DNA from: Geodermatophilus sp. DF01-2 | GTDB taxonomy: Bacteria > Actinomycetota > Actinomycetes > Mycobacteriales > Geodermatophilaceae | Assembly (NCBI RefSeq): GCF_004571065.1 | Contig: NZ_SPQN01000043.1 | Span: 1-37,971 of the forward strand | Length of the DNA: 37,971 nt | Reading direction: 5' to 3' | Shown: positions 2,920-35,870 of the stretch, piece by piece | How positions within the stretch are numbered: the first letter of the stretch is position 1 | How the letters are laid out: every line of letters begins with the position of its first letter | Notes under the pieces: generated by a model | What the model saw: only the letters and a program-made list of their open reading frames with translations | Told to the model about the DNA's origin: nothing | Databases searched by the model: none | Program-made: the position numbers and the translations under genes

Positions 2920-3840
2920 ATGAGCGCGACCTCCACGCCCCACCCACCGCAGCTGTCCCTGCCCGGTCAGGTGCACGCCGCGGAGGGGCCGCTCGACATG
3001 AGCGGCACGTACGTCATGCACCACGCCTTCCGGCGCGACCTCGACCGCTTCGCCGCGGCCGTGCGGGCCACGCCGCCGCAGGACGCCGCCGTCTGGCGGG
3101 CGCTCGCCGGCCGGTGGCAGCGCTTCGCCATGGTGCCGCACCACCACCACACCACCGAGGACGCCGACATCTGGCCGCTGCTGCTGGCCCACGCGGACGT
3201 GTCCGGGGACGCCCGGGCGTGCGAGACCCTCGGCGCGATGGCCGCCGAGCACGGGACCCTCGACCCGCAACTGGCCGCCTGCGGCGAGGGCTTCGCCACG
3301 ATGGCACGGTCACCGGACGCCCGCGTCCGTGACAGGCTCGCCGAGGACGTCGCGACGCTGCGCGACGGGCTGCACCACCACCTCGCGCACGAGGAGTCGG
3401 CCGTCCTGCCGCTGGCGCAGCAGCACCTGTCCCGGGCCGAGTGGGCCACCGCCGAGGACGCCGCGAAGAAGGCCTGCGCGCCGCGTGAACCGGGCGTCCT
3501 CGTCCCCTGGGCCGCCGACGGCCTGGACCGCGCGTCGCTGGACCGTGCGTTCGCGGGGGCGGGACCGGTCTTCCGCATCCTGTACCGGCTCACCCGGGGC
3601 CGCTTCGCGCGTCGAGCGGATCGCGTTCGGCTACAGCAAGGACCTCCCTGCCCCCCGCCCCTCGTAGAAGGACCCCGTCCTCCCCACCCCTCGCAAGCTC
3701 GGGACGGGACCCTGCAGGAAGGCCGTCAACCGAGGTTGCCGAGGAAGGCGTCGGTGACGTCGACGGCCACGCTGCTGGACTGCCCGCCCTCGACGAGGAC
3801 GGCGAAGGCGAGGTCGCCCTGCGGGCCGCCGAGCTGGTAG
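2920..3840 (+). CDS. Hemerythrin/HHE-domain protein with an abnormal, repeat-derived C-terminus
   Basis: Start ATG 2920 follows GGGAGGGA. Residues about 25-175 form a hemerythrin HHE cation-binding four-helix bundle: H34/H35, the HHHH run at 74-77 with E80, H111, and HHH 152-154 with HE 157-158. Such proteins bind a di-iron centre for O2, NO or redox sensing. The normal body ends near LYRLTRGRFARR (about residue 232, nt 3615). After that the frame runs on through a hairpin repeat (3641-3722) and antisense to the end of the neighbouring PBP gene, giving about 75 non-homologous residues (306 aa in total). In the +1 frame, from about nt 3611, the sequence reads VERIAFGYSKDLPAPRPS and stops at 3667 with a TAG supplied by the repeat, so a frameshift near 3611 is likely. 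Confidence 0.8.
   Translation: MSATSTPHPPQLSLPGQVHAAEGPLDMSGTYVMHHAFRRDLDRFAAAVRATPPQDAAVWRALAGRWQRFAMVPHHHHTTEDADIWPLLLAHADVSGDARACETLGAMAAEHGTLDPQLAACGEGFATMARSPDARVRDRLAEDVATLRDGLHHHLAHEESAVLPLAQQHLSRAEWATAEDAAKKACAPREPGVLVPWAADGLDRASLDRAFAGAGPVFRILYRLTRGRFARRADRVRLQQGPPCPPPLVEGPRPPHPSQARDGTLQEGRQPRLPRKASVTSTATLLDCPPSTRTAKARSPCGPPSW
3641..3722. repeat. Hairpin repeat copy A (between convergent hemerythrin and PBP genes)
   Basis: Outer arms CCTCCCTGC (3643-3651) and GCAGGAAGG (3714-3722) pair over 9 bp with one mismatch. A nested stem pairs CCCGTCC with GGACGGG around the conserved core CCCCTCGCAAGCTCGGG. The element starts three bases after the PBP stop codon, and TAGAAGGACC inside it ends the alternative hemerythrin frame. 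It could act as a bidirectional terminator between convergent genes. Confidence 0.85.
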
Positions 3841-5621
3841 CCCATGAACCAGCCGTGCGCGTCCGGCGGGGTGTTGCTGCCGTACTCGGCCGTGCCGGTC
3901 TTGCCGAACACCTCGCCGCGGTCGGCGAGCGCGGACGCGGTGCCGGAGAGGACCACCTCGCGCATCATCGGCCGCAGCGACTCGAGGACCGCCGCGTCGG
4001 GCCCGGCCGGCAGCGGGCCGGCCGGCTCGGCGCCGACGACCTCGACCGGCGCGACCGGGGTGCCGCCCGCGACGCCGGCCGCCACCAGCGCCAGCTGTGC
4101 CGGGCTCATGAGCACCCGGCCCTGGCCGATCGCGTCGGCCGCCTTCGCCGTCCCGGTGCTGTCGGCCGGCACGCTGCCGCTGAACACGTCGACCGGCAGC
4201 TGCCAGTCGGTGCCGACGCCGTAGGCGGCGGCCGCGGTGGCGAGCGCGTCGTCGGGCAGCTGCAGCGCCAGCTGCATCAAGGTCGTGTTGCACGACTGCG
4301 CGAAGGCCTCGGTGAACGGCACGGTGCCCAGGTCGAACCGGTCGGCGTTCTCGAACTCGCGGCCGTCGACGACGAAGGTGCCGGGGCAGGCCACCGGCGT
4401 CTGCGGGGCGACCGTGCCCGTGGCCAGCAGTGCCGTCGCGGTGATCGCCTTCATGCTGGAGCCCGGCGGGTACCGGCCGGTCAGCGCGTTCCCCGCCGCG
4501 GCGGTCTCGTTGGAGGAGACGGCGAGGATCTCCCCGGTGCCGGGCCGGACGACGACCAGGTGGGTCGGCAGCTGCTGGGTCGCGACGGCGGCGTCGGCGG
4601 CGGTCTGCACCGCGCGCACCAGCGGCGTCTGCAGCGGCTCGCCGGGCACCGGCTCCACCGCGTCGACCTCCCGTCCGGCGTCCCCCGTGGCCTCGTCGGT
4701 GCTGACGACGGTCACGGTGAAGCCGGGGGTGCCGGTGAGCTGTTCCTGGAAGGCCCGCTGAAGGCCGGAGAGGCCCAGCTGGTCCCCGGCGGCGTACCCC
4801 GGGGTGCCGTCCTCGGCGGTCTCCTCCAGCACCTCGGCGGTCGCCGGGCCGACCCGGCCCAGCAGCGCGGAGGCGAAGCGGGCGCTGGGCGCCAGCAGCC
4901 GGGTGTCGGTGGGGAACACCGCGCCCGGCAGGTCGAAGACCTGCGCACGGATGGCCTCGAAGTCCGGACGGCGCAGCGTGATGACCGGGACGAACTGGCC
5001 CTCCGGCGCGGCCTGGACGTCGGCGACGATCTCCTCGGCGGCGATCCCGGTGGCCGCCGACAGCGCCTCGGCCAGCGCCGGGAGATCGGTGACCTGGGCC
5101 GGATCGACCCCGATGTCGACCACCTCGGTGGGGGTGAACAGCGGTTGGCCGGCCGCGTCGGTGATCGGGGCGCGCTCGGGCAGCACCCGCTCGAGCAGCA
5201 GCCGTTGGCCCTCCCCCAGCTCCGGGTGCACCAGCGTGGGCTCGGCGACGACGTCCCACCCCTCCTCGGCCTCCTGCAGGCGCAGCGTGGCGGGGTAGCT
5301 CCAGTCGGGCGCGGCCGCGAGGTCCCAGGAGGCGGTCCAGTCGACGGTGGCGGTGCCGTCCTCGACGGCGACCCGGCCCAGCTCGGGGGTCAGCGTCGCC
5401 TCGGGCAGGTCGGTCGCCGTCTGCTCGAGCAGCGCGGTCGCCATTTCCGGATCGGTGGTCGCACCGGCGGCGGCCGCGGTGTCGCCGGCCGCCCAGTCGG
5501 TCAGGAAGGCCTCGGCCGCGGCCCGGACGTCGTCCTCGGCGTCGCCCGAGCAGGCGGCGAGCACCGGCACGGCGAGCAGCGCGAGCGCGGATCCCAGGAC
5601 CGTCGTCCGACGTGTACGCAC
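3726..5621 (-). CDS. MecA-like class B penicillin-binding transpeptidase, lipoprotein
   Basis: A D,D-transpeptidase that cross-links peptidoglycan outside the membrane. From GTG 5621 it is 631 residues: a signal sequence with lipobox LAAC (C24), an NTF2-like MecA N-terminal domain (about 28-140), a PBP dimerisation-type region (about 150-340) and the transpeptidase domain. Catalytic motifs are complete: SxxK is S388-S-M-K391 (in YPPGSSMK), SxN is S443-C-N445, and KTG is K574-T-G576 (FGKTGTAEY). It matches the penicillin-binding lipoprotein next to the GNAT and ispG genes of M. tuberculosis (Rv2864c). MecA-like PBPs often have low beta-lactam affinity, but that cannot be judged here. The longer upstream frame to 6452 only reads antisense-frame noise through the GNAT gene and was not used. 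Confidence 0.92.
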   Translation of the reverse strand: MRTRRTTVLGSALALLAVPVLAACSGDAEDDVRAAAEAFLTDWAAGDTAAAAGATTDPEMATALLEQTATDLPEATLTPELGRVAVEDGTATVDWTASWDLAAAPDWSYPATLRLQEAEEGWDVVAEPTLVHPELGEGQRLLLERVLPERAPITDAAGQPLFTPTEVVDIGVDPAQVTDLPALAEALSAATGIAAEEIVADVQAAPEGQFVPVITLRRPDFEAIRAQVFDLPGAVFPTDTRLLAPSARFASALLGRVGPATAEVLEETAEDGTPGYAAGDQLGLSGLQRAFQEQLTGTPGFTVTVVSTDEATGDAGREVDAVEPVPGEPLQTPLVRAVQTAADAAVATQQLPTHLVVVRPGTGEILAVSSNETAAAGNALTGRYPPGSSMKAITATALLATGTVAPQTPVACPGTFVVDGREFENADRFDLGTVPFTEAFAQSCNTTLMQLALQLPDDALATAAAAYGVGTDWQLPVDVFSGSVPADSTGTAKAADAIGQGRVLMSPAQLALVAAGVAGGTPVAPVEVVGAEPAGPLPAGPDAAVLESLRPMMREVVLSGTASALADRGEVFGKTGTAEYGSNTPPDAHGWFMGYQLGGPQGDLAFAVLVEGGQSSSVAVDVTDAFLGNLG

Positions 5622-5667
5622 GGGGAGACAGCGTTCCAGACGAGGACGTCGATTCCTGTGAGGCTGG

Positions 5668-5721
5668 CCCCCTCCCGGGCACCGCCCCGAGCGGGCGAGG
5701 TGTGGGGAGGAGGGGGTCCCT
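5668..5721. repeat. Hairpin repeat copy B
   Basis: Arms CCCCCTCC (5668-5675) and GGAGGGGG (5709-5716) pair perfectly over 8 bp. The sequence differs from the commonest arm pair (CCCCGTCC/GGACGGGG), but both sides changed together. The inner core keeps CCGCCCCGAG and GAGGTGTGG. On the minus strand it begins four bases after the stop of the GNAT gene, separating it from the PBP gene. Confidence 0.8.
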
Positions 5722-5724
5722 ACT

Positions 5725-6576
5725 TCAGAACAGGACACTGGCGAACCGTCCGACCTCGCGGAAGCCGACCCGTGCGTAGGCGGCGCGGGCCGGGCCGTTG
5801 AAGTCGTTGACGTAGAGGCTGACCAGCGGCGCGATCGCGGTGCGGGCGTACTCGACGACGGCCGCGGTGCCGGCCGCGCCGATGCCGCGGCCGCGGTGGG
5901 CGGGGGCGACCCACACGCCCTGCACCTGGCAGACGCTGCGGGACACCGCCCCGATGTCGGCCTTGAACACCACCTCGTCGCCCTCGATCCAGGCCAGCGA
6001 CTGCCCGGCGCGGACGAGGTCGGCCACCCGGGCGCGGTAGCCCGCGCCGTCGTCCACCCGCAGCGGGCTGACGCCGACCTCCTCGGTGAACATCGCCACC
6101 GCGGCCGGGAGCAGGACGTCGAGCTCGGCGAGGCCCACCGGGCGGACCCGCGGCTCCGGGGCGATCGCCGGCGGCCCCTCGATGGCCAGCAGGGGCTGGT
6201 GGGGGCGGTGGTCGCGGGCCGGGCCCCACGATGGCGCCAGGAGCTCCCACAGCGGGTCCACCGACGCGGCCGGGCCGACGATGGTCGAGCACCGGCGGCC
6301 CGCGCGGCGGGCGCGGTGGGCGAAGGCGGCGGCCGCAGCGCCCTCGGACCCCGGCAGGGCGAACGGGATGAGGTTGGCCCCGGCCAGGCAGACCGCCTCC
6401 AGGGAACGGCCGCTGCCCAGCCCCCACAGCGGGGCGCCGAGGGACGCCGCACCGGTGCCGGCGGCCTCCACCCGGCCCGCGATCACGCAGGCGGCCACCG
6501 GGTCGGTGGCCAGCAGACGGCGCACGGCGGGCTCGTCGGTCTCGTCGAGGACCCGCGCGGCCGGCGTGCGCAGCAC
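5725..6576 (-). CDS. GNAT family N-acetyltransferase (DUF4081-type N-terminus)
   Basis: Start GTG 6576 (VLRTPAARVLDETDEPAVRRLL) lies eight bases after the ispG stop; 283 residues. The N-terminal half resembles DUF4081 (DPVAACVIAGRVEAAG), and the C-terminal half is a GCN5-type fold with the acetyl-CoA loop VQGVWVAPAHRGRGIGAAGTAA near residues 215-236 and the ending LYVNDFNGPARAAYARVGFREVG. It corresponds to the GNAT gene that lies between ispG and the penicillin-binding lipoprotein in mycobacteria (Rv2867c position). The acceptor substrate is unknown. It is probably cotranscribed with ispG. Confidence 0.9.
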   Translation of the reverse strand: MLRTPAARVLDETDEPAVRRLLATDPVAACVIAGRVEAAGTGAASLGAPLWGLGSGRSLEAVCLAGANLIPFALPGSEGAAAAAFAHRARRAGRRCSTIVGPAASVDPLWELLAPSWGPARDHRPHQPLLAIEGPPAIAPEPRVRPVGLAELDVLLPAAVAMFTEEVGVSPLRVDDGAGYRARVADLVRAGQSLAWIEGDEVVFKADIGAVSRSVCQVQGVWVAPAHRGRGIGAAGTAAVVEYARTAIAPLVSLYVNDFNGPARAAYARVGFREVGRFASVLF

Positions 6577-6584
6577 GGAACCGG

Positions 6585-7745
6585 TCAGCTGACGGTGACG
6601 ACGGGTGGACCGGAGGGCGTGCCGACGTCGACCTGCTCGCCGGCCAGACGCATGGCCTCCTCGATGAGGGTCTCGACGATCTGCGACTCGGGCACGGTCT
6701 TGATGACCTCGCCCTTGACGAAGATCTGGCCCTTGCCGTTGCCGGAGGCGACGCCGAGGTCGGCCTCGCGGGCCTCGCCCGGGCCGTTGACGACGCAGCC
6801 CATGACGGCCACCCGCAGCGGGACCTCCATGCCCTCGAGCCCGGCGGTGACCTCGTCGGCCAGCCTGTAGACGTCGACCTGGGCGCGGCCGCACGAGGGG
6901 CAGCTGACGATCTCCAGGCCGCGTCGGCGCAGGTTCAGCGACTCGAGGATCTGGGTGCCGACCTTGACCTCCTCGGCCGGCGGGGCGGACAGCGAGACGC
7001 GGATGGTGTCGCCGATGCCCTGGGAGAGCAGCGCGCCGAAGGCCACCGCGGACTTGATGGTGCCCTGGAACGCCGGGCCGGCCTCGGTGACGCCGAGGTG
7101 CAGCGGGTAGTCGCACCGCGCGGCCAGCAGCTCGTAGGCGCGCACCATGACCACCGGGTCGTTGTGCTTGACCGAGATCTTGAGGTCGCGGAAGTCGTGC
7201 TCCTCGAACAGCGAGCACTCCCACAGCGCCGACTCCACCAGCGCCTCCGGGGTGGCCTTGCCGTACCTGGCCAGCAGCCGCTTGTCGAGCGAGCCGGCGT
7301 TGACGCCGATGCGGATCGGGATGCCGGCACCCTTGGCCGCCCGGGCGATCTCGCAGACCTTGTCGTCGAACTTCTTGATGTTGCCGGGGTTGACCCGGAC
7401 GGCGGCGCAGCCGGCGTCGATCGCGGCGAAGACGTAGCGCGGCTGGAAATGGATGTCGGCGATCACCGGGATCTGCGACTTCTTCGCGATGATCGGCAGC
7501 GCCTCGGCGTCGTCGGTGTCGGGGACGGCGACCCGCACGATCTGGCAGCCGGACGCGGTGAGCTCGGCGATCTGCTGCAGCGTCGCGTTGACGTCGGCGG
7601 TCTTGGTCGTCGTCATCGACTGCACGCTGACCGGGTGGTCGCTGCCGACCCCGACGCCGCCGACGTCGAGCTGCCGGGTCTTCCGCCGGGGTGCCAGGAC
7701 GGGTGGAGGCGCAGCGGGCATGCCGAGACTGACAGGGATCGCCAT
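6585..7745 (-). CDS. ispG: 4-hydroxy-3-methylbut-2-enyl-diphosphate synthase IspG (GcpE)
   Basis: IspG is the [4Fe-4S] enzyme of the MEP isoprenoid pathway that converts methylerythritol cyclodiphosphate to HMBPP. The 386-residue product carries the TIM-barrel motifs [31 protein letters not shown] and RVNPGNI, and the cluster ligands C282 and C285 (SCPSCGR) and C317 ([10 protein letters not shown]), with E324 of NGPGE also present. Length is normal. In M. tuberculosis ispG lies directly beside rip1 and dxr. Here it is separated from rip1 by about 2.5 kb of accessory DNA, but both MEP genes remain in the same neighbourhood and on the same strand. Confidence 0.97.
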
Positions 7746-7863
7746 GGCACCGAGTATCCCCCGCCTCCCGATGCCGCCGTCGGCGCAGCGGCCAGCGACC
7801 GGATCTCCCGGGGATGACCGCGCAGATGCCGGCGACGCCCCGTTGCGCCACTACGCTCGCCGC

Positions 7864-8418
7864 ATGAGAGGCGTGCTGGTGGAGGTGCCCGAGCAGATGC
7901 TCGCCGAGCGTCGGCGCCTGGGGCTCGACGGGCGCGACGAGATGTGGGAGGGAGTCCTGCACATGGTGCCTCCGGCCGGCGGACGGCACCAGCGGCTGGG
8001 CAGCAGTCTGCTCATGACCCTGGGTCCCGTCGCAGAGCGGTGGGGACTGGTCGTTTCGTACGAGACCGGACTCTTCCGCAACGGCGACGACTACCGGGTG
8101 CCCGACCTGCTGTTCTACCGGCCGGAGCACGCCTCGGACCGCGGCGCCGAGGGGGCGGACCTGGTGGTCGAGCTGCGCTCACCCGGCGACGAGAGCTACG
8201 CCAAGCTTGACTTCTACGCGGCGCTCGGCGTCCGTGAGGTGCTGGTCGTCGACCCCGCCGGCCCGGCCGTCGAACTGTTCCGCCTCGTCGGCGAGCGGTT
8301 GCTCCCGGTGTCGGCGGACACGGAGGGCGGGGTTCGCAGCGACGTCCTCGCCGTCCGCTTCCACACCTCCGGCGACGCACTCCGGCTGACCTGGGTCGGC
8401 GGCGAAGCCGCCCTCTGA
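7864..8418 (+). CDS. Uma2 family (DUF820) putative endonuclease
   Basis: The 184-residue protein has the PD-(D/E)XK-like Uma2 pattern: a hydrophobic N-terminus with EMWEGVLHMVPPAGGRHQRL, then YRVPDLLFY (D), DLVVELRSPGD (E-x-R/K), YAKLDFYAALGVREVLVVDP with the conserved Lys/Asp, and a short beta-rich end. The family is widespread in cyanobacteria and actinobacteria, often in accessory regions, and its biological function is not settled. It is oriented opposite to ispG and sits in the insert between ispG and rip1, followed by a hairpin repeat and an IS element, consistent with acquisition. No antitoxin-like partner is visible next to it. Confidence 0.88.
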   Translation: MRGVLVEVPEQMLAERRRLGLDGRDEMWEGVLHMVPPAGGRHQRLGSSLLMTLGPVAERWGLVVSYETGLFRNGDDYRVPDLLFYRPEHASDRGAEGADLVVELRSPGDESYAKLDFYAALGVREVLVVDPAGPAVELFRLVGERLLPVSADTEGGVRSDVLAVRFHTSGDALRLTWVGGEAAL

Positions 8419-8458: not shown

Positions 8459-8522
8459 TCAGGGTCCCGCCGGCCCCGTCCCGGGCCCCGCCCCGAGCTT
8501 GCGAGGGGTGGGTAGGACGGGG
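8459..8522. repeat. Hairpin repeat copy C, left part (split by the IS)
   Basis: Contains the reference core: CCCCGTCC (8474-8481) pairs with GGACGGGG (8515-8522), enclosing CCCGCCCC and GGGGTGGG around the GAGCTTGCGAG loop. The 3' arm ends exactly where the IS begins. The continuation of the element (TCCTTCT) is found on the far side of the IS. Confidence 0.88.
8514..8522. repeat. Putative target-site duplication, left copy
   Basis: AGGACGGGG at 8514-8522 is repeated at 10193-10201, just outside the right end of the IS. Nine bases fits the range known for IS4-type elements. Joining the left flank to the right copy would restore an uninterrupted hairpin repeat. Confidence 0.65.
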
Positions 8523-8615
8523 CAATGCCGTTTACTTGGCGCGTTCGTGCAGGTCAGGCTGTAGGCGACGAGCGCGGGGTGCGGTGGCGGTCGGCGTGGC
8601 AGCGCCGTTGATGAA

Positions 8616-8671
8616 GAAGCTCCCGGCAGGACGGCGATCGCCGAGATCAGAACGTCCGTACCGGGAGCTTC
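8616..8671 (+). promoter_or_regulatory. Hairpin hiding the transposase ribosome-binding site
   Basis: GAAGCTCCCGG (8616-8626) and CCGGGAGCTTC (8661-8671) are a perfect 11-bp inverted repeat. A further 5-bp pairing is possible inside (GGACG with CGTCC). The 3' arm contains GGGAG (8663-8667), placed five bases before the transposase ATG at 8673. A transcript entering from outside the IS would fold and mask this site, a control known for IS10 and IS50. The folding effect is inferred. Confidence 0.7.
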
Positions 8672-8672
8672 G

Positions 8673-10190
8673 ATGCCGAAGTCTGCCACCCTTGCTGTTC
8701 CCGCGGTCGCATCCTCAGCCGCCGGCCGCGATGACGGTGGCAGCCTGTCCGCGGCGCTGCCGGCGGAGAAGGGGCTGCCGCTGCGGCTGGGAGTGCTGAC
8801 CGAGCACGTTCGGCCGGAGCTGGTCGATGAGGTGGTGGCCGCGACCGGGCGGGTGCAGCGGCGGTGCCGGCTGTTGCCGGCGCGGGCGGTGGTGTACTTC
8901 GTGCTCGCGTTGTGCCTGTACAGCGCCGCCGATGCCGCCGGCCCGCCGGGCTACCGCAGCGTGCTGCGGTCGCAGACCACCGGGCTGCGCCAGCTGCGTG
9001 GGCTGCGGCTGCCGACCAGGGCGGCGCCGACCCGGGCCCGCCGACGGCTGGGCGCCGGGGCGCTGCAGGCGTTGTTCGCCCGCCTGTGCGGGCCGCTGGC
9101 CGCGGTCGCAACCTTGGGGGTGTTCGCCTTCGGCCGCCGGGTGGTGGCCTTCGACGGCACCGGCCTCGATGTCGCCGACACCCCGGCCAACGTCGAGGCC
9201 TCCGGCCGCGCCGGGGACGCCGGTCATCCGCAGCTGCGGCTGCTGGCGTTGATCGAGTGCGGCACCCACGCGGCGCTGGCCGCGGCCTTCGACGGCTTCT
9301 ACGCCGCCAGTGAGCAGGTGCTGGCCCGTCGGGTGCTGGCCGGGCTGCGGCCGGGCATGCTGCTGTTGGCCGACCGGAACTTTCCCGGCTACCAGCTGTG
9401 GGGCGCCGCGGCGGCCACCGGGGCGGACCTGGTCTGGCGGGTCAAGAAGAACACCGTGTTCATTCCGGTGCGCCGGCTGGGGCAGATCGTTCCTGTCGGT
9501 CATGCCCACCCCCGCCGACGGCCTGCGCCACGTCCGGGCCCGGTCCGCCGGCCGGCCGCTGCCCGGCCCACCCGAGGGCCACCCGGTGCGGATCATCGCC
9601 TACACCGTCACCGTGACCGCCGCCGACGGCAGCCGCCGGGTCGAGTCGTTCCGGCTGGTCACCACCCTGCTCGACCCTCTCGAGGCGCCGGCGGAGCAGC
9701 TGACCGCGCTGTATCACGAGCGCTGGGAGAGCGAGGTCGGCTACGGCGAGATCAAGACCCGGCTCCGCGGCGCAGGATTCATCCTGCGCTCCCGCACACC
9801 CGAGCTGGTCCGCCAGGGAATGTTCGCCTTCCTCGTCGTCAGCCAGGCCCTGTGCGCGATGCACACGGCCGCCGCGGCGACCACCGGCATCGATCCCGAC
9901 CGGATCTCCTTCACCATCACCGTCCGCCTGGCCCGCGACCAGCCCGGCACCACAGCCGCCGCCACCCCGGCCACCCTGCAGCAGGCCCACCAGCAGGCCA
10001 TCACCGACCTGCTCGACGACCTGCTTCCGCCCCGACGGTCACGAACCTGCCAGCGGGCCAAGCGACGCCCCAAGGGCCACTACCCGACCAGACGACACAA
10101 CCAGACCCGACCACCGAGCAAGGTCAGCTACACGCTCACCATCACCGGCGACGCCCCCACCTGGGTAAACGCCATAAGTAGACGGCATTG
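8673..10190 (+). pseudogene. IS4 family transposase, frameshifted
   Basis: The DDE transposase is split between two frames. The N-terminal part starts at ATG 8673 and is coherent to about nt 9485: LGVFAFGRRVVAFDGTGLD carries the first catalytic Asp and LLLADRNFPGYQLW the second (DRNFPG). From about nt 9487 the +1 frame continues with SFLSVMPTPADGLRHVRARS, and then YHERWESEVGYGEIK, which is the Y(2)R(3)E(6)K signature of IS4 with the catalytic Glu. One extra base, or two missing, near 9483-9489 explains the break. The C-terminal frame has no stop inside the element and reads across the right inverted repeat. IS4 members do not normally use programmed frameshifting, so this is probably an inactivated gene, though an assembly error is possible. 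Confidence 0.8.
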
Positions 10191-10192
10191 GA

Positions 10193-10236
10193 AGGACGGG
10201 GTCCTTCTCCGAGGCGTGGGGGGCAGGGTGGTCCTT
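10193..10236. repeat. Hairpin repeat copy C, right part (with right target duplication)
   Basis: AGGACGGGG (10193-10201) followed by TCCTTCT completes the hairpin element that the IS interrupted. A second half-element (GGGGGGCAGGGTGGTCCTTCTA) extends to the rip1 stop. On the minus strand the rip1 TAG stop is itself the start of the family motif TAGAAGGACC. Confidence 0.75.
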
Positions 10237-11634
10237 CTACTGCTGCAGGGTGATCGGGTTGACGACGTCGGCGACCAGCAGCAGGCCCGACAGGAGCACG
10301 AACAACCCGGCGACGACGTAGGCCACCGGCATCAGCCGGGCGATGTCGAACGGCCCGGGGTCGGGCCGGCCGCGCAGCCGGGCGACGACCGACCGCGCCT
10401 TCTCGTACAGCGCGCCGGCGACGTGCCCGCCGTCGAGCGGGTAGATCGGCAACAGGTTGAACAAGAACAGCACCAGGTTGATGCTCGCCAGCAGCTGCAG
10501 GAACGTGCTGACCTTCTCCATGCCGGTCAGCTCGGGGATGGCGAAGACCTCACCGGAGATGCGGCCCACGCCCACGACCCCGATCGGCCCGTTCGGGTCC
10601 CGCTCCTCCCCCAGGAACGCCGCACGGAACAGCTGCGGGATGCGCTCGGGGATCTCGATCAGCCGCTCGACGGCGCGCGTGACGACCATGCCGAAGTAGC
10701 CGGGCAGGTCGGCGAGGTCCTGCCGGGCCAGCTCGACGGTCGGTGCGACGCCGAGGTACCCGGCGGTCGTCGTCCCCGCGGCGGGGTCGGTCGGGTCGGC
10801 GTAGACGGTGTTGGCGATCGGCGTCACCGTGAGCTCGCGCCGCTCGCCGTCCCGCACGATGGTCAGCCCGAGCGGCTCGCCCGGGCTGGTGCGGATCGCC
10901 TCCTGGACGACCGTCCAGCTGTCGTACCCGGTGGGCTCGAGGGGCTGACCGCCGATGGCGACGATCGTGTCGCCGGGGCGCAGCCCGGCGGCCGCGGCGG
11001 GGCTCTGCTGCGGCAGCGCACAGCCCGGCGTCCCGGCCTCGCAGGTCTGGCCGGCGGGCGTGATCGGCACCGAGCAGGCGTTCTCCGCGGTCGCCGTCTC
11101 AGCCTCGGCCGGCAGCACGCACGCCGGGACCTCGTCCACCGTCGTCGACAGCACGCTGGTGCCGACGACGGTCAGCAGGACCGCGAAGAGCAGGACCGCC
11201 AGCACCAGGTTGTGGAAGGGGCCGGCGAACATCACGATGACCCGCTGCCACCAGGGCTTGGCCCAGAACACCCGGCCCTCGTCGCCGGGGCGGACGTCGT
11301 TGAGCGCCGCGCCGCGCACCTCGGCGATAAACGAGCGCATGCGGGTGGCCCGCTTGCTCTCGTTCTCCTCGGCCGGCGGGATCATCCCGATGATGCGGAT
11401 GTAGCCGCCGAGGGGGACGGCCTTGATCCCGTACTCGGTCTCGCCGCGCGTCCGGGACCAGATCGTCGGACCGAAGCCGACCATGAACTGCGGCACGCGC
11501 ATGCCGAATTTCCGGGCCCACCAGAAGTGGCCGGCCTCGTGGAAGGCGATCGAGAACAGCAGCCCGACGGCGAACGCGACGATCCCCAGGACGGTCAGCA
11601 GGATCCCGCTCAGCTCAGCCTCCGGCGATGACAC
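10237..11634 (-). CDS. rip1: Site-2 protease, RseP/Rip1 family zinc metalloprotease
   Basis: An intramembrane protease that cleaves membrane-anchored anti-sigma factors during regulated proteolysis. 465 residues from GTG 11634: the first membrane helix (about 10-30) carries the zinc motif HEAGH at H32-E33-H36. A second helix follows (about 132-155, [21 protein letters not shown]), then a PDZ domain (about 195-270, [20 protein letters not shown]), a helix with [12 protein letters not shown] (third ligand Asp of LDG) and a last helix near the C-terminus ([22 protein letters not shown]). A Cys-rich segment at about 167-200 lies before the PDZ domain. Its start lies inside the end of dxr (20-base overlap), so dxr-rip1 are one operon as in mycobacteria. 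Confidence 0.95.
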
Positions 11635-13374: not shown

Positions 13375-13478
13375 CGGACCCCGTCCCTCCCACCCTTTCG
13401 TAGAAGGACCCCCTGCCCCCCGCCGCTCGCAGGCTCTCGGCGGGACCCTGCAGGGGGCCGGGCCGGGTACGGGGCCGC
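13375..13478. repeat. Hairpin repeat copy E (between convergent DUF2631 and VIT1 genes)
   Basis: Outer arms CCCCCTGC (13409-13416) and GCAGGGGG (13450-13457) pair over 8 bp, and inner arms CCCGCCG (13419-13425) and CGGCGGG (13438-13444) over 7 bp. TAGAAGGACCCC precedes the stem. A partial GGACCCCGTCC module directly follows the DUF2631 stop, and a GCCCCGTACCC module follows the VIT1 stop. It is placed like a terminator serving both genes. Confidence 0.88.
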
Positions 13479-14195: not shown

Positions 14196-15433
14196 GCGTC
14201 CGCCTCGGCCCCGAGCTCCGCCGGCGGCTCGAGCGAGGGTGCCGGCACCGCGACGGTGGGGACGCCCGGAAGGACCCCGTCGTCCTCACCCCTCGGAGGG
14301 GCGGTACCCGGACGGGGCCGAGCCTCGCGACGGGGCCATCCGTCGGCCGCGGCCAGCTGCCCGCAGGCGCCGTCGATGTCCTGGCCGCGGGTGTCGCGGA
14401 CCGTCGTCGGCACGCCGTGCGCGCGCAGCCGCGTGACGAACTCCCGCTGCGCTGGCAGCGGGCTGGCGTCCCAGGGGCTGCCCGGCGTGGGGTTGAGCGG
14501 GATGAGGTTGACGTGCGCCCGCCGCCCGGCGAGCAGTCGGCCGAGCAGGTCGGCGCGCTCGGGTGAGTCGTTCACGTCGCGGATCAGGGCGTACTCGACC
14601 GAGTAGCGGCGGCCGGTGCGCTCGGCGTAGGCGTCGGCGGCAGCGACGACCTCGGCCACCTTCCACCGGGTGTTGATCGGCACGAGGGTGTCGCGCAGCT
14701 CGTCGTCGGGGGCGTGCAGGCTGACCGCGAGGGTGACCGACAGGCCCTCCTCGGTGAGCCGCCGGATCGCCGGGACGACGCCGACGGTGGAGACGGTGAC
14801 CGAGCGCTGGGACAGCCCCAGCCCGTGCGGCGCCGGCGTCACCAGCCCGTCGAGGGTCTTGCGGACCCGCGCGTAGTTGGCCAGCGGCTCGCCCATGCCC
14901 ATGAAGACGACGTTGGACAACCGGCCCGGGCCGCCGGGGATCTCGCCGCTCGCCATCGCCGCCGCGGCCGCGACCGCCTGGCCGATGATCTCGGCGGTGG
15001 AGAGGTTGCGGGTCAGGCCGTTCTGGCCGGTGGCGCAGAAGGGGCAGGCCATGCCGCAGCCGGCCTGGCTCGAGATGCAGACGGTGGCGCGGTCCGGGTA
15101 GCGCATCAGCACGCTCTCGACCAGCGCGCCGTCGTGCAGTCGCCACAGCGTCTTGCGGGTGCGCCCGCCGTCGGCGGACTGGTGCCGCACCGGCGTGAGC
15201 AGGCCGGGCAGTAGCGCGCCGGTGAGCGACTCGCGGACGGCGGCCGGCAGGTCGGTCATCTGCGCCGGGTCGGTGACGCCCCGGTAGAAGTGCCGGGCGA
15301 GCTGGTCGGCCCGGAACGCCGGCTGGCCCAGCTCCGCGACCGCGGCACGGGCCTCCTCGCGGGTCAGGTCGGCGAGGTGGCGCGGCGGCTTGCCCCGGCG
15401 GGGGGCGTCGAAGACCAGGGGGAGCGCAGTCAT
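14192..15433 (-). CDS. rlmN: 23S rRNA (adenine2503-C2)/tRNA methyltransferase RlmN
   Basis: A radical-SAM methyltransferase that methylates A2503 of 23S rRNA. From ATG 15433 (GGGGAG four bases upstream) it has 413 residues. The cluster motif CxxxCxxC is C126-GMA-C130-PF-C133, preceded by [19 protein letters not shown] is the SAM-binding GEP motif, and C357 ([10 protein letters not shown]) is the methyl-carrying catalytic Cys. The family body ends near residue 365. Residues about 374-390 ([18 protein letters not shown]) are encoded by a copy of the dispersed hairpin repeat, so the tail is lineage-specific. It is coupled to the VIT1 gene by an ATGA overlap. Confidence 0.95.
14272..14320. repeat. 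Hairpin repeat copy F, inside the rlmN coding end
   Basis: CCCCGTC (14275-14281) pairs with GACGGGG (14311-14317). Inside, CCCCT and AGGGG form a small stem with a CGG loop. In the rlmN frame it encodes [15 protein letters not shown], close to the GGEDGVLL read from the copy in the DUF952 gene. Confidence 0.75.
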
Positions 15434-17014: not shown

Positions 17015-17482
17015 CGGTGCTGGTGCACCTGGTCGAGCCCGCGGCCTGGCGTGCCGCTCTCGACACCAGGGCGCTCCGGCCGCCGTCCCTGGCCGATCAG
17101 GGGTCCTTGCACCTGTCCACCCCGGAGCAGGCGCACCTTCCGGCCGAGCGGCTGTTCCCCGGCCGGCGGGACCTGGTGCTGCTCGTCGTCGACCCCGCGC
17201 GGCTGCCCGACCCGGTGCGCTGGAAGCCAGGGAGGCGGTCCCGTCCCGGGTCCCGCCCTCAGCTCGCGAAGGGTGGGGAGGACGGGGTCCTTCTCCTGCA
17301 CGGTCCGCTGCCGGTGACCGCCGTCGTCGCCGTCGTCCCCCACCGGCCGCCGGTCGAGCCGGTCCTCCCCGAGCCGGACGACGCCCTCGGTCGGGCTCTC
17401 GCGCTGCAGCTTTCCCTGCCGGTACGGCGGGCCGCCGAGGTGCGCGACGTCCCCGGCGGCATGGCCGTCCTCGACGGGGCGC
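17011..17482 (+). CDS. DUF952 domain with an in-frame hairpin repeat, open into a GNAT domain
   Basis: Starts at GTG 17011, overlapping the ppk2 stop. Family residues are clear: VLVHLVEPAAWRAA, LRPPSLADQGSLHLSTPEQ, RRDLVLLVVDPARL. After PVRWKPG (nt 17227) the expected FPHLYGPLP segment is replaced by a longer stretch read from a hairpin repeat ([27 protein letters not shown]), after which the family sequence resumes (VTAVVAVVPHRP). There is no stop after the domain. The same frame continues into what looks like the N-terminus of the following GNAT protein (ALGRALALQLSLPVRRAAEVRDVPGGMAVLDG), then loses sense at about 17480. DUF952 function is unknown. The entry ends at the frameshift, not at a stop. 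Confidence 0.72.
17227..17298. repeat. Hairpin repeat copy G, inside the DUF952 coding region
   Basis: CCCGTCC (17240-17246) pairs with GGACGGG (17280-17286) around CCCGCCCTCAGCTCGCGAAGGGTGGGG, nearly the family core. It is inserted in frame between two conserved segments of the DUF952 domain. Confidence 0.82.
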
Positions 17483-20713: not shown

Positions 20714-20746
20714 ACCGGCCCCGTCCCGGGAGGGGACGGGGCCGGT
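20714..20746. terminator. 14-bp perfect hairpin between tsf and pyrH
   Basis: ACCGGCCCCGTCCC (20714-20727) and GGGACGGGGCCGGT (20733-20746) form a perfect 14-bp stem with a 5-base loop. The arms contain the CCCCGTCC/GGACGGGG pair of the dispersed family. No U-run follows, so it would be a GC-only terminator or a processing or pausing signal; the role is inferred. Confidence 0.65.
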
Positions 20747-20749
20747 GAG

Positions 20750-20804
20750 GACCCTCCTGCCCCCCACCGCTCGCATGCTCGCGGCGGGACCCTGCAGGAG
20801 GGTC
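20750..20804. repeat. Hairpin repeat copy H
   Basis: GACCCTCCTGC (20750-20760) and GCAGGAGGGTC (20794-20804) pair perfectly over 11 bp around CCCCCACCG...CGGCGGGACC. Both arms differ from other copies in matching ways. On the minus strand it starts two bases after the tsf stop codon. Confidence 0.88.
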
Positions 20805-20806
20805 GC

Positions 20807-21622
20807 TCAAGCTTGGCCGACCTCGAAGCGGGCGAACCGCTCGACGCTCAGGCCGGCCTCGTCGACGATCTGCTTGACCGTGCGCTTGGGCTCGGTGATC
20901 GACGGCTGCTCGAGGAGTACGAAGTCCTTGAAGTAGGCGTTGACCCGCCCCTCGACGATCTTGGTGATCGCCTGCTCGGGCTTGCCCTCCTCCTTGGCGG
21001 TCTGCTCGGCCACGCGACGCTCGGTCTCGACCGCCTCGGCCGGGACCTCCTCGCGGGTGAGATAGCGTGGGCGGGCAGCGGCGATGTGCATCGCCAGGCC
21101 GCGCGCAGCGTCCTCACTACCGCCGCTGTACTGCACGGCGACGCCGATGGCCGGCGGCAGGTCGGTGGCCCGCTTGTGCAGGTAGGTGGCGGTCTGGCCG
21201 GCGAAGACCACGAACCGGCTGAGCACCAGCTTCTCGCCGATGCGGGCCGACTCGCCCTCGACGAGCGCGGCGACGGTCTGGCCGTCGATCTCGGTCGCCA
21301 GGAGCGCGTCGACGTCGGCCGGCTTCTCGGCCAGCACGATGTCGAGCAGGCGCTCGGCCAGCTTGACGAAATCGGCGTTCTTGGCGACGAAGTCGGTCTC
21401 GCAGTCGAGCTCGAGCAGCGCGCCGTCCTTGCTGACGACGACGCCGTTGGTCGTCGAGCGCTCGAGGCGCTTGCCGACGTCCTTCGCGCCCTTGATCCGC
21501 AGCAGCTCGACGGCCTTGTCGTAGTCGCCTTCGGCCTCGGTGAGCGCCTTCTTGCAGTCCATCATGCCGGCGCCGGTGGCGTCGCGGAGACGCTTGACGT
21601 CGGCTGCGGTGAAGTCAGCCAT
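20807..21622 (-). CDS. tsf: Translation elongation factor Ts
   Basis: EF-Ts exchanges GDP for GTP on EF-Tu. 271 residues, starting [41 protein letters not shown], the UBA-like N-terminus and family signature. [19 protein letters not shown] (TDF motif) and the second signature-bearing core domain follow, with the C-terminal helical element to [12 protein letters not shown] 21622. It follows rpsB in the usual order, but 184 bases separate them and that gap is filled with hairpin repeats. Confidence 0.97.
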
Positions 21623-21654: not shown

Positions 21655-21806
21655 CCCCCTGCAGGGTCCCGCCGGCCCCGTCCCGGGTCCCGCCCCGAGC
21701 TTGCGAGGGGTGGGGAGGACGGGGTCCTTCTACGATGGGGAGCAGGGGGTCTTTCTACGAGGGGTGAGGAGGACGGGGTCCTTCAAGGGGCCTCCGGGGT
21801 CCTTTC
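21655..21806. repeat. Composite hairpin repeat copy I, between rpsB and tsf
   Basis: Contains the clearest core: CCCCGTCC (21676-21683) pairs with GGACGGGG (21717-21724) around CCCGCCCCGAGCTTGCGAGG. An outer pair CCCCCTGC (about 21655-21662) and GCAGGGGG (21742-21749) nests around it, and a further GGACGGGGTCCTTC module lies at 21771-21784. On the minus strand the first module (AAAGGACCCC) starts directly after the rpsB stop. Confidence 0.88.
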
Positions 21807-30451: not shown

Positions 30452-30594
30452 GGGACCCCGGCCCCGTTCCGGGTCCCGCCCCGAGCCTGCGAGGGGTGGG
30501 AGGGCGGGGTCCTTCTCCGAGCGGCGGGGGCAGGGCGGCCCCGTCCAGAGGCTCGCCGTGAGCCTGCGAACGGTGAGGAGGACGGGGTCCTCGT
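30452..30594. repeat. Composite hairpin repeat copy J, after the LuxR gene
   Basis: Two modules. The one next to the gene pairs CCCCGTCC (30539-30546) with GGACGGGG (30580-30587), and on the minus strand starts four bases after the stop (GAGGACCCC). The second keeps the core GTCCCGCCCCGAGCCTGCGAGGGGTGGG with weaker arms, followed by CCCTGCAGGG. Confidence 0.85.
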
Positions 30595-31299
30595 TCAGGC
30601 CTCGGCGGAAGTCAGGGTGTGGGCGCCGCAGGTGCAGCCGGGAGTGCGAGAGGACAGGACCAGGGAGACCGCGTGCGCCCGGTCGCGGGCACCCAGCTTG
30701 CGCAGGATGGCCTTGACGTGGGACTTGACGGTGTCCTCGCTGATGAACAGGTTGCGGCCGATCTGCCGGTTCGACTGGCCCTGGATGAGCTCGTCGAGGA
30801 CGTCGGACTCCCGGCGGGTCAGCGGCACCTCGGGGGTGAACGGCTTGGCGGCGGGAACGGCCGAGGGCTCGACCCGGCGGATCTGCGGGTCGACGACGGT
30901 GCGGCCGGCGCGGGCAGCCAGGATGGCCCAGCCGAGCAGGGTCGGCGAGGTGTTGATCATCAGGTAGCCGCGGACACCGGCGGCCAGGGCCTCGTTGACC
31001 ACGGCGGGGTCCTCGGAGGTTCCCAGGGCCACGATCGTCACCCGCGGGTACCGGCGACGCAGGTCCCGGCAGGCGTTGAGCGTCGCGGCGCGGCCCGAGC
31101 CCAGCTCCACGACCACCGCGTCGGGGCGGGCCGTCTCGACCAGCGTCAGGGCCCGGCGCAGCTCACCCGGAGTCCCGACCGACTGCATGCCGGCGGTCTC
31201 GTTGACCATGCTCACCAGCCCGCGGCGCAGGACGGGGGCGTCGGCGAGGATGAGCACGCGGGTGACGCCACGAGCGGCACTCGCCATGGGTGCGGACAC
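30595..31299 (-). CDS. LuxR/NarL-type regulator with degenerate receiver domain
   Basis: 234 residues from GTG 31299 (GGAG six bases upstream); ATG 31287 is an alternative. A receiver-like domain (about 13-135) is followed by a LuxR HTH (about 165-225): LTRRESDVLDELIQGQSNRQIGRNLFISEDTVKSHVKAILRKLGARDRAHAVSLVL. The receiver lacks the phosphorylation residues: the acceptor Asp position is E65 (PDAVVVELGSG), the acidic pair is reduced to A19-D20, the Thr/Ser position is G92 and the conserved Lys is I114 (GYLMINTSP). The last residues contain CTCGAH. No sensor kinase is adjacent. It probably binds DNA independently of phosphorylation, perhaps in a permanently active state. It sits between lepB and rnhB, which are neighbours in mycobacteria. 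Confidence 0.9.
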   Translation of the reverse strand: MSAPMASAARGVTRVLILADAPVLRRGLVSMVNETAGMQSVGTPGELRRALTLVETARPDAVVVELGSGRAATLNACRDLRRRYPRVTIVALGTSEDPAVVNEALAAGVRGYLMINTSPTLLGWAILAARAGRTVVDPQIRRVEPSAVPAAKPFTPEVPLTRRESDVLDELIQGQSNRQIGRNLFISEDTVKSHVKAILRKLGARDRAHAVSLVLSSRTPGCTCGAHTLTSAEA

Positions 31300-31553: not shown

Positions 31554-31575
31554 GATGGAGGCGCTCGTGCGGGAC

Positions 31576-33100: not shown

Positions 33101-33602
33101 TCAGCCGACGAAGCGCGGCGGCCCCGGCCAGGGTCCGGCCAGCAGCCCCGGCGGCAGGTGGGCGAGCTCCGCGGGCGCGAAGGTCTCCGCGCTGTCCGCG
33201 ACTTCCGCGGCGCTCCGCCACCGGTGCGGCTCGGCACCGAGCAGTTCCAGCTCTGTCCGCCCGCGCGGGTCCGCCTGGTGCACGACGTCGCGCAACACGA
33301 AGAAGGTCTCCCGCGAGTCGATCTGCATCGAAGGCGTTCGGGCCGACGTGTCGCCGGAACCACACCGGGCCCTCCAGCGCCGCGGGCGCCACGACGAGGC
33401 CGATCCCCTCGGCCAGCTCCCGCACAGCGGCCTGCCACACGCTCTCCCCCGGCTCCACGCCGCCGCCGAGTGTGTACGAGAACAGCACCTCCCCGGGCGG
33501 GACCGCCGGGTCGGTCAGCCGGGCGCCGAGCAACAGCACCCGCCCTCACGGGTCGAGGACGACCATCCGTGCGGTCGGCCGCACCCACGGCCGGTCAGCC
33601 AT
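33101..33602 (-). pseudogene. NUDIX hydrolase pseudogene (nonsense codon plus frameshift)
   Basis: From ATG 33602 (overlapping the trmD end by eight bases) the frame reads [18 protein letters not shown], then TGA at 33548-33546 (codon 19), then GRVLLLGARLTDPAVPPGEVLFSYTLGGGVEPGESVWQAAVRELAEGIGLVV. This is the Nudix box, but its EE pair is EG, losing a metal ligand. At about 33330 the frame breaks (FRRHVGPNAFD), and the +1 frame continues with MQIDSRETFFVLRDVVHQAD, then EPHRWRSAAEVADSAETFAPAELA, to a stop at 33101. A restart at GTG 33539 could bypass the stop but not the frameshift. Three independent lesions make real decay more likely than sequencing error. Confidence 0.82.
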
Positions 33603-34338
33603 CGCCGAGGACGGCGCGGTCGGCGGCCGACAGGGTCTCGACCGGCAGCGCCGCCAGCAGGTCCGGCCGCCGGGCCGCCGTCCGCCGTAGGGACTCCGCC
33701 CGCCGCCACCGGGCGATCGCCGCGTGGTCGCCGGAGAGCAGCACGGGCGGGACGTCGTGGCCGCGCCAGGACGCCGGGCGGGTGTACGAGGGCCCCTCGA
33801 GCAGCCCGTCGGCGTGCGAGTCGAACTCGACCGACTCCCGCTTGCCCACCACGCCGGGCAGCAGCCGGGTCACCGCCTCGACCATGACGAGCACCGCGGA
33901 CTCGCCGCCGGCCAGCACGTAGTCGCCGATCGACACCTCGGAGACCGGGCCGGCCTCCGCCGCCCAGTCGGCGACCCGCTGGTCGATGCCCTCGTAGCGG
34001 CCGCAGGCGAAGACGAGGCCGGGCTCGGCGGCCCACTCCGCGGCAGTGGCCTGGGTGAAGGGGCGCCCGGCCGGGGTCGGGACCACCAGGCGGGTGCCCG
34101 GCGGGCGGACGGCCTCGAGCGCCCGGGCCCACGGCTCCGGGCGCATCACCATGCCGGGGCCGCCGCCGTAGGGGGCGTCGTCGACGGTGCGGTGCACGTC
34201 GTCGGTCCACTGCCGCAGGTCGTGCACGCCGATCGAGACCAGGCCGCGCCCGGCGGCCTTGCCCAGCAACGACTGGCGCAGTGGCGCGAGGTACTCGGGG
34301 AAGATGGTGACGACGTCGATGCGGAAGCCGGAGCTCAC
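33595..34338 (-). CDS. trmD: tRNA (guanine-N1)-methyltransferase TrmD
   Basis: Makes m1G37 in tRNAs, preventing frameshifting; a SPOUT knot dimer. 247 residues: [61 protein letters not shown], then [42 protein letters not shown] (knot) and [35 protein letters not shown]. The start overlaps rimM by four bases. Intact. Confidence 0.97.
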
Positions 34339-34868
34339 AGGTCGAGCAGCCCCTCGGGCGGGTCCACGACGAGGAAACCGCCGGCCAGGTCGACGGTCGG
34401 CACGATCGCCGTGACGAACGGCACGAGCAGCTGTCCACCCTCGTCCCGGCGGACGACGAGCAGGTCGGCGCCCTCGTGCCGCACGGCGTCGACCGTGCCG
34501 AGCCCCGCGCCGTCGGGCAACTGCGCGCGCAGACCGACCAGCTGGTGGTCGTAGAAGACGTCGGGGTCGTCGAGCGCGGGCAGCTCGGCCACCGGGACGA
34601 GCAGTTCGGTGTTGCGGAGGAGCTCGGCCGCCTCGCGGGTGTCGACGCCCTCGATCTGCAGCAGGAGGACCTCACGGTGCCAGCGGCGACCGGCGACGGT
34701 GAGCCGCCCGCGGTCGGCGGGGTCGGTACGCAGCAGCGCGCCCGGGGTGAACCGGAGGTCCGGGTCGTCGGTGCGGACCTCGACGGTGACCTCACCACGG
34801 ACACCGTGGGGCCGGCCGATGCGGCCGACCACCACGGTGTCGGGGGGGTCGTCTGGCTCTGCCTTCAC
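34335..34868 (-). CDS. rimM: Ribosome maturation factor RimM
   Basis: Helps assemble the 30S head with S19. 177 residues from GTG 34868. Two domains: N-terminal [28 protein letters not shown], and a C-terminal PRC-barrel ([66 protein letters not shown]). The stop overlaps the trmD start (ATGA-type overlap at 34335-34338). Normal length. Confidence 0.96.
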
Positions 34869-34892
34869 CAGATGGCGCTCAGAGAGAGGCGC

Positions 34893-35129
34893 TCAGCGCC
34901 CGTCGGTGTCGACGACATCGACCCGCAGGCCGCGACCGCCGACGCCGGTCATCACCGTGCGCAGCGCCTTGGCGGTGCGGCCGCCACGGCCGATGACCTT
35001 GCCGAGGTCGTCGGGGTGCACCCGGACCTCGAGGGTCTTGCCGCGGCGGTTGCCGATCAGGTCGACCGTGACGTCCTCGGGGTGGTCGACGATGCCCTTG
35101 ACCAGGTGCTCGAGCGCCTCTTCGAGCAC
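34893..35129 (-). CDS. khpA: KH-domain RNA-binding protein KhpA
   Basis: 78 residues from GTG 35129: LEEALEHLVKGIVDHPEDVTVDLIGNRRGKTLEVRVHPDDLGKVIGRGGRTAKALRTVMTG. A single KH domain with the GxxG loop in IGRGGR. KhpA forms a pair with KhpB/EloR in many Gram-positives and affects RNA metabolism and cell elongation. It sits three bases after rpsP and 24 bases before rimM, in the canonical operon. Confidence 0.95.
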   Translation of the reverse strand: MLEEALEHLVKGIVDHPEDVTVDLIGNRRGKTLEVRVHPDDLGKVIGRGGRTAKALRTVMTGVGGRGLRVDVVDTDGR

Positions 35130-35132
35130 TGG

Positions 35133-35573
35133 TTACTCGGCGGGCGTCTCGGCGGCGGCGTCGGTCGCAGCCGCGTCGTCGGCCTTGGCGGCGGCCTTCT
35201 TCCTCGGGGTGGTCGCGCCGACGGCCGGCTCCTCACCGGCGGTGCGGACGGCCTCCTCGTAGAGGGCCTTCTTGTCCGGCTTCGGAGCGGCGACCTTCAT
35301 GGGCGGCGGGGCCGGCTCGCCCTTGAACTTCTGCCAGTCACCGGTGACCCGGAAGATGGCGGCGACGGGCTCGGTCGGCTGCGCGCCGACGCCCAACCAG
35401 TACTGCGCCCGCTCGGTGTCGACCTCGATGAAGGACGGGTCCTCCTTCGGGTGGTACTTGCCGATCGTCTCGATGACGCGACCCTCGCGCTTGGTGCGGG
35501 AGTCGGCGACGACGATGCGGTAGTACGGAGCGCGCATCTTGCCCAGGCGCATGAGCTTGATCTTGGTGGCCAC
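35133..35573 (-). CDS. rpsP: 30S ribosomal protein S16
   Basis: 146 residues from GTG 35573 ([46 protein letters not shown], then [29 protein letters not shown]). The first 85 residues are the S16 fold; the remaining 60 are an Ala/Lys/Glu-rich tail as in other actinobacteria. The frame is open upstream to 35831, but that part reads a hairpin repeat and shows no similarity, so it was excluded. ffh, which often precedes rpsP, is not next to it here; proS is. Confidence 0.95.
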
Positions 35574-35743
35574 GGTGGGTGGTGTTCTCCTCGAACGCAG
35601 GTCGTGTGCCCGCCCGGCACGACGCGTGGGGGTACGCCGGGGGGCGGTGCGGCTGGACACGGCCGGCAACGGTGAGAGGGCCGCCCACCGCCGTGTTCGA
35701 CCGACCATTGTGCCAGACGCGCGGAAGCCGTCCGCGGCCAGCG

Positions 35744-35870
35744 CGGACGGCCCCGTCCAGAGGCTCGCGCCGAGCTTGCGAGAGAAGGAACCCGCTCCTC
35801 CTCGAAGGGCCCCGTCCCTCTCACCGCGCACGGGCTCGCGGCGAGTCTCCGGACGGGGCCCGGAGCGGTC
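35744..35870. repeat. Composite hairpin repeat copy K, between proS and rpsP
   Basis: GGGCCCCGTCC (35807-35817) pairs perfectly with GGACGGGGCCC (35851-35861), 11 bp. A second module (GGCCCCGTCCAGAGGCTCGCGCCGAGCTTGCGAGAG) lies beside it at 35748-35783. On the minus strand the first arm follows the proS stop by about ten bases. The 298 bases between proS and rpsP contain this and presumably the rpsP promoter. Confidence 0.85.

Follow-up and report, generated by a model that had tools for sequence, protein, structure and literature searches.

Hairpin elements in the window

The window examined here, a stretch of 37,971 nucleotides from Geodermatophilus sp. DF01-2 (contig NZ_SPQN01000043.1, positions 1 to 37,971), contains repeated copies of a hairpin element found in many genomes of the Geodermatophilaceae, a family of desert and stone bacteria. 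At gene 3' ends of close relatives, the element is present, absent, inverted or swapped for a different copy. In antisense copies the hairpin stands at a fixed distance from the stop codon, and which stop is used (TGA, TAG or TAA) varies with that distance. The element is probably a non-autonomous mobile palindrome of this family, similar to repetitive extragenic palindromes (REPs).

The unit has the layout GGCC-arm-AGGG-CCCGCCCC-GAGCNTGCGA-GGGGTGGG-GA-arm-GGTCC-TTCT and forms a hairpin of about 53 nt in two tiers, an outer and an inner stem, capped by a conserved tip of ten bases, GAGCNTGCGA, which could hold sheared G-A pairs as well as a short GC stem. The strand carrying the core CCCGCCCCGAGCTTGCGAGG continues after the hairpin in a pyrimidine-rich tail, TCCTTCT, which qualifies the original prediction of a hairpin without a U-tract. 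Copies with a long left end have a GTTCC tail on the opposite strand and imperfect terminal inverted repeats, CTG...CAG. The core has seven near matches in the window (at most three mismatches), compared with 0.05 expected. A covariance model, R1, trained on 26 copies that all come from the source genome, finds ten strong copies (56.9-87.3 bits), in agreement with the predicted minimum of ten loci sharing a core. Two weaker matches lie at 35741 (19 bits) and, doubtfully, within a predicted gene (14257..14327, minus strand, 32.2 bits). Rfam gives no match above the gathering score in the window.

The neighbouring genes carry the Pfam domains expected from their predicted names: ribosomal protein S2 (rpsB), EF-Ts (tsf), DUF4081/GNAT, PBP, DUF2631, VIT1, an M50 peptidase (rip1-like), LuxR/GerE, and a class II tRNA synthetase with an editing domain (proS-like). 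Four strong copies are on the minus strand. The first (3655..3731, 72.3 bits) is sense to the PBP gene (stop at 3726), with half-copies alongside and a distance of 2 nt; the second (13391..13467, 79.7 bits) lies between the convergent DUF2631 and VIT1 genes; the third (20735..20811, 79.5 bits) is immediately 3' of the tsf stop codon (20807); and the fourth (35792..35868, 56.9 bits) follows the proS-like stop codon (35872) in sense orientation. On the plus strand, a copy antisense to the DUF4081/GNAT gene (5658..5734, stop at 5725, 76.3 bits) has the junction TGA AGTAG GGACC, and another is found between a PPK2 and a GNAT gene assigned by Pfam (17229..17305, 68.0 bits). An antisense copy 3' of rpsB is nested in a second copy (21666..21742, plus strand, 87.3 bits). 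Downstream of the LuxR-family gene, a nested copy (30452..30527, plus strand, 67.9 bits) is accompanied by an antisense copy flush with the stop codon (30529..30605, plus strand, 75.6 bits; TGA ACGA GGACC). Where copies are nested, the inner one lies in the central part of the outer one, near the tip.

The nested copy 3' of the rip1-like gene is interrupted. The right arm of its inner element (8464..8540, plus strand, 71.3 bits) is cut by an IS4-family insertion sequence (8523..10190, plus strand), whose open reading frame (ORF; 8673-10181) has the Pfam domains Nterm_IS4 and DDE_Tnp_1. The insertion is flanked by an imperfect 11-bp duplication, GTAGGACGGGG (8512-8522) and GAAGGACGGGG (10191-10201), with ends judged by eye. 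Beyond it, the sequence shows the displaced right part of the inner element and the right half of the outer element (10191..10239, plus strand), reaching the rip1-like stop codon (TAG AA GGACC).

Three further features were observed. An ORF with a Uma2 domain (a putative restriction endonuclease; 7453-8418) stands beside the interrupted element. The frame of a hemerythrin-domain ORF (2920-3840) passes through the first element into the convergent PBP gene. At 37676-37971 an identical 86-bp tandem repeat reaches the end of the window and is either a real array or an assembly effect.

Covariation and strand asymmetry

Across 26 copies and 19 pairs, 93.5% of the cells are paired, and 11 pairs show double changes. 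The 52 double-change cells compare with 15.8 ± 2.8 in shuffled alignments (0 of 500 as high) and with 1-7 in versions slid out of register, which bears out the claim that the arms differ between copies yet stay paired through compensatory change.

The pairing is asymmetric. In the 97 of 137 source-genome copies that measure 77 nt and have enough pairs, the core strand has 189 G-U cells against 18 A-C cells over 18 pairs, and 58 against 18 when two G-U-dominated pairs are left out. Copies sense to the neighbouring gene have 32 G-U and 5 A-C cells; antisense copies have 72 and 3. Since the core strand is favoured even in antisense copies, the pattern is not that of the adjacent mRNA. A core-strand RNA, a single-stranded DNA form or plain inheritance from the source copies would fit this asymmetry.

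Distribution in the Geodermatophilaceae

R1 finds 137 copies in 1,188,099 bases of the source genome; these stretches (1.19 of 4.45 Mb) were drawn from contigs in which copies were known, which biases the density upward. Genome-wide, scoring of the best 150 candidates gives at least 151 copies. The density is uneven: 80 kb of contig C133 has no match up to E 1 and 120 kb of C101 has one, compared with ten strong copies in the 38-kb window.

The covariance search was extended to related genomes, scoring the best 126-150 candidates per genome (the best 31 in an order-wide draw), so that counts near these values are lower bounds. Matches are present in 29 of 38 family genomes, from 1 to at least 126 per genome; the nine genomes with no R1 match all belong to genera g58, g60 and g61. 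In a draw of 150 genomes from the order, all 18 family genomes, every one from a genus other than these three, have matches, against 2 of 132 others. Among named genomes, a pattern scan gave matches solely in records of Geodermatophilus, Blastococcus and Modestobacter (34 stretches). The lineage specificity proposed for the element is supported, and chance hairpins in GC-rich DNA are ruled out by the core excess, the covariation and the restriction to the family. Congeners differ sharply, with at least 126 copies each in genomes G120 and G184 and one in G180, which has none in 39.5 kb of syntenic sequence, although a variant missed by the model is possible.

Position relative to genes and stop codons

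Gene calls were made with a simple codon-usage script rather than a standard gene finder. Ten of the 137 copies fall within gene calls; omitting these and three copies flanked by a neighbour on one side at most leaves 124 placed copies. Of these, 110 have a gene 3' end on at least one side, and the other 14 occupy divergent gaps. The predicted 3'-end location therefore holds for most copies, with those in divergent gaps or within gene calls as exceptions. The intergenic density per kilobase declines from 1.77 copies in convergent gaps through 0.88 in tandem ones to 0.28 in divergent ones.

Stop distances, junctions, left ends and nesting were analysed by motif searches allowing few mismatches. 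Antisense copies accumulate within 0-9 nt of the stop codon (34 of 85, with 15.2 expected if uniform), and sense copies do not (9 of 66, with 11.4 expected). An exact gap of 4 nt between stop codon and GGACC occurs in 47 of 135 antisense copies and in 1 of 119 sense copies from the stretches of the source genome, G161 and G170. The predicted rule of a GGACC motif a few bases after a stop codon thus applies to antisense copies and fails for sense copies. At the 4-nt gap, the four intervening bases are purine-rich (RRRA), and the core strand, on which UCCUUCU follows the hairpin, is antisense to the gene.

The kind of stop codon depends on the spacing. In the source genome, G161, G170, G158 and G155, the stop is TGA in 65 of 66 copies at spacing 4 and in 11 of 12 at spacing 1, TAG in 7 of 10 at spacing 2 and 4 of 6 at spacing 5, and TAA in 3 of 4 at spacing 0; element-free genes end in TGA (1561), TAG (182) or TAA (32). 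The association of TGA versus TAG with register has a Fisher p of 9e-11, which is an underestimate given that related genomes have slots in common. The final two stop bases coincide with AA, GA and AG of the element foot at spacings 0, 1 and 2, respectively. Exactly spaced copies have C before TGA in 44 of 46 cases, compared with 711 of 1229. That stop identity tracks register suggests that the element foot helps to form the stop codon.

Foot tags, read ahead of GGACC on the strand opposite the core, were scored in 120 of the 137 copies. Away from stop codons (n = 84), the bases before AA-GGACC are most often GTAG (12), GGAG (10), GTGG (9) and GCAG (8). A GNNG foot is present in 53 of these 84 copies and in 18 of 36 next to stops, figures that stand without a shuffled control. 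At spacing 4, the G of the stop coincides with the first tag position, where G is usual (66 of 84 copies elsewhere).

Individual loci show what lies beyond the element. The presumed old stop codon and its downstream sequence are found there in G161 gene 123 compared with G155, and in G155 gene 41 compared with G158. At another locus, an apparent GTGA gene overlap is split with both ends retained (G155 and G170 against G161 and G158). The occurrence of GGCGTGA on both sides at one locus, considered as a target duplication, is better read as such a split overlap.

Two explanations of the spacing were set aside. The first, a spacing imposed by the terminating ribosome, does not fit the lack of a peak among sense copies. 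The second, CTGA as a target already present in the host, is weakened: CTGA occurs in 41 of 69 comparisons with orthologs of exactly spaced genes that lack this spacing themselves (genes counted repeatedly), against 51 of 105 in the background. Mycobacterial interspersed repetitive units (MIRU) have the target DTGA.

Turnover between close relatives

Across ten relatives with conserved synteny, the corresponding gene ends may lack the element or hold it in either orientation. We compared G161 with G170 (Geodermatophilus obscurus), which share 95.4% identity over the syntenic stretch. Identities in the ortholog comparison were counted without gaps, and hairpins in the same slot were compared by alignment. 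Among 215 ortholog pairs in about 239 kb, 152 have an element in neither genome, 40 in both, and 13 and 10 in one only; the 63 ends occupied in one genome or both count a copy in a convergent gap for both genes. In 205 gaps with conserved neighbours, the numbers filled in both, one and none are 8, 7 and 12 for convergent, 24, 8 and 118 for tandem, and 3, 0 and 25 for divergent gaps.

Shared slots often hold different copies. Hairpins in the same slot and orientation have a median identity of 0.77 (26 pairs), compared with 0.72 for random pairs, and 6 of the 26 reach 0.85. The 60-nt flanks have an identity of 0.91 beyond the right end and 0.67 beyond the left end, and the orientation is inverted in 6 of 32 same-slot pairs. 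This variable filling, inversion and replacement agrees with the suggestion of a mobile REP-like unit. We abandoned an interpretation of the outer arms as those of host terminators, since relatives carry different arms in the same slot.

A second, different dispersed repeat containing GATGCTCACTC was seen in G. obscurus (joined stretches L064, L065 and L132-L141, at about 89484-89647 and 128149-128225) and is missing from the same places in G161.

A probable mobile palindrome and its foot

In the mechanism we propose, the unit would be mobilised in trans, as a core-strand hairpin, by an enzyme other than a Y1 transposase. Its foot would help to form the stop codon, letting insertions at gene ends survive, and the inserted hairpin may then serve as a bidirectional terminator. 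More tentatively, and with rather more doubt than confidence, the element might represent a new class of mobile palindrome, in which the foot is a stop-codon cassette that joins to the coding sequence and ends the gene with its own bases in different registers, and in which the exchange of copies between gene ends outpaces the divergence of the neighbouring genes and is driven by a mover unrelated to Y1/RAYT (REP-associated tyrosine) transposases. An actinobacterial palindrome with a GTAG-like tag, extreme turnover, a stop codon in fixed register to the foot and no RAYT found would suggest both a further route by which hairpins move and a further means of rendering insertions harmless. With congeners that carry a single copy or at least 126, the search for the mobiliser is open to direct testing.

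Several observations weigh against the mobile-palindrome interpretation. The A of a TGA stop at spacing 4 occupies a position at which most other copies have T and 7 of 84 have A, which speaks against a foot that merely brings TGA with it. The stop position is the same in G161/G170 orthologs in 20 of 21 cases with an element within 12 nt in both genomes, in 19 of 22 with an element in one and in 160 of 172 with none; these mostly unchanged stops are not easily squared with an insertion that brings its own stop codon. The same slot is counted repeatedly across related genomes in the statistics on 4-nt spacing, pre-TGA base and stop register, which lowers their p values unduly, and the ancestral states at the individual loci above are inferred. 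Slots are reused more than expected (40 shared, against about 12 from 53 and 50 of 215), an excess that also fits selection for a hairpin at these sites, or gene conversion. No target-site duplication is detected in 63 flush copies (longest common word 4.90, controls 4.74). As for the enzyme, Y1_Tnp (PF01797) has no match in the 38 family genomes at E ≤ 0.1 (8 of 14 controls positive), Y1 transposases have none in 25 genomes of the genus, and reverse transcriptases (RTs) are missing from several copy-rich genomes.

Terminators and gene ends

The alternative that survives best, which we nevertheless hold to be unlikely, is that the elements are bidirectional intrinsic terminators or 3'-end stabilisers under selection, with arms exchanged by gene conversion and mobility as a by-product. 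They resemble intrinsic terminators in being GC-rich hairpins at gene ends, with the density falling from convergent through tandem to divergent gaps, as this explanation would have it. The tails on the two strands, the excess reuse of slots and the near-identical spacing retained by replaced copies also speak for it. At the 3' end of rpsB, a plain hairpin or an element is found by eye in 11 of 11 genomes.

The tsf gene provides evidence on both sides. Its 3' end in the window has a plain terminator-type hairpin distinct from the element (20714..20746, minus strand, placed by eye from the sequence). By eye, this hairpin is found in 9 of 11 genomes, and its absence from G161 and G159, both element carriers, speaks for a terminator role. 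However, it is retained in 6 of 8 genomes with the element, as it is in 3 of 3 without. In fixed-window folding, z is below -2 for 0.32 of 103 element-bearing gene ends, 0.22 of 23 ends with the element only in the other genome and 0.39 of 28 element-free convergent gaps.

The strand relations count further against a terminator. A hairpin should work in either orientation, yet exact spacing is confined almost entirely to antisense copies, and the pairing asymmetry follows the core strand, not the strand of the gene. The near-absence of the element from G180 also counts against it, unless a variant escaped the model. Unlike intrinsic terminators, exactly spaced elements are antisense, often stand beside a plain terminator and turn over rapidly. 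To judge from the sequence, terminator activity of the element is possible; as the main role, the predicted function as terminator or 3' stabiliser goes beyond what the sequences show.

Candidate mobilisers

Returning to the proposed mobile palindrome, we considered three routes of mobilisation. REP families, those of PMC3733652 included, are known chiefly from Proteobacteria and spread in association with RAYTs. If the element were a classical REP of the GTAG type, mobilised by a RAYT (Y1) transposase, this would explain the degenerate GNNG foot tag and, as described for such REPs in PMC3733652, the high copy number and location mostly 3' of genes. We consider it very improbable in view of the lack of PF01797 matches given above and of a unit exceeding the REP size stated in that paper. 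We class the element as REP-like but not among the RAYT-driven REPs, since the Y1 transposase, one of their defining features, was searched for and not found.

Derivation as a miniature inverted-repeat transposable element (MITE) from a DDE insertion sequence that some genomes still carry is suggested by the terminal inverted repeats of copies with a long left end. Arms more variable than is usual for terminal inverted repeats, together with the lack of a target-site duplication, make this origin very improbable. Among 183 left-end matches listed, 141 have no core nearby (about 75 nt of each inspected, with no ORF search between ends).

PF00078 reverse transcriptases match in 22 of 38 family genomes, and a retron-like RT family, fragments included, in 20 of 38, with scattered absences. 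The best PADLOC models for the three members scanned are RT_other and RT_outgroup. Short partial matches to the retron-like RT (L142, L147-L157) were seen in G155 and G177. An RNA intermediate copied by a reverse transcriptase such as the family-wide retron-like one would account for the strand asymmetry, with its excess of G-U over A-C, and for the polarity; in genera g5 and g6, six PF00078-positive genomes have at least 38 copies and three negative ones at most 13. This is nonetheless the least probable route: eight genomes with at least 66 copies (G057, G085, G171, G172, G174, G106, G181 and G140) match in neither RT search, so that neither RT is required now, G120 and G184 are without the retron-like RT, stretches of up to 14 kb around 12 retron-like RT genes contain no element (E ≤ 0.01), and among 16 RT stretches elements occur only in L143, which has a group II intron-type RT.

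Comparison with known repeats

Among the top-ranked entries of a partial literature collection, no title or abstract describes the Geodermatophilaceae hairpin family. MIRU of mycobacteria, as described in PMC12548453, are likewise dispersed actinobacterial repeats that insert at gene borders; compared by description only, they differ in inserting at start codons with a coupled ORF, whereas the present element is a hairpin at stop codons. The CGTC-tagged REPs of PMC3733652 are also palindromic and without a dedicated transposase, but in that account they carry another tag and belong mainly to alpha-Proteobacteria.

The closest likeness is to the GTAG-type REPs of PMC3733652, which qualifies the original statement that no described family matches. 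Foot tag, location and copy number are alike: as presented there, GTAG-type REPs are high-copy short palindromes with complementary stem changes, carry an unpaired terminal GTAG with degenerate positions 2 and 3 at one foot, and lie mostly 3' of genes between tandem or convergent ORFs. They are reported from Proteobacteria, Cyanobacteria, Chloroflexi and the PVC group; Actinobacteria do not figure in that paper's phylum lists, nor does the string 'actinobacter' occur in its main text. The claim of novelty stands to the extent that the present element belongs to Actinobacteria, in genomes without a detected Y1 transposase. It further differs from the GTAG-type REPs of that paper in its two-tier stem of about 53 nt, longer than their 20-40 bp, and in the stop codon that stands in fixed register with its foot.

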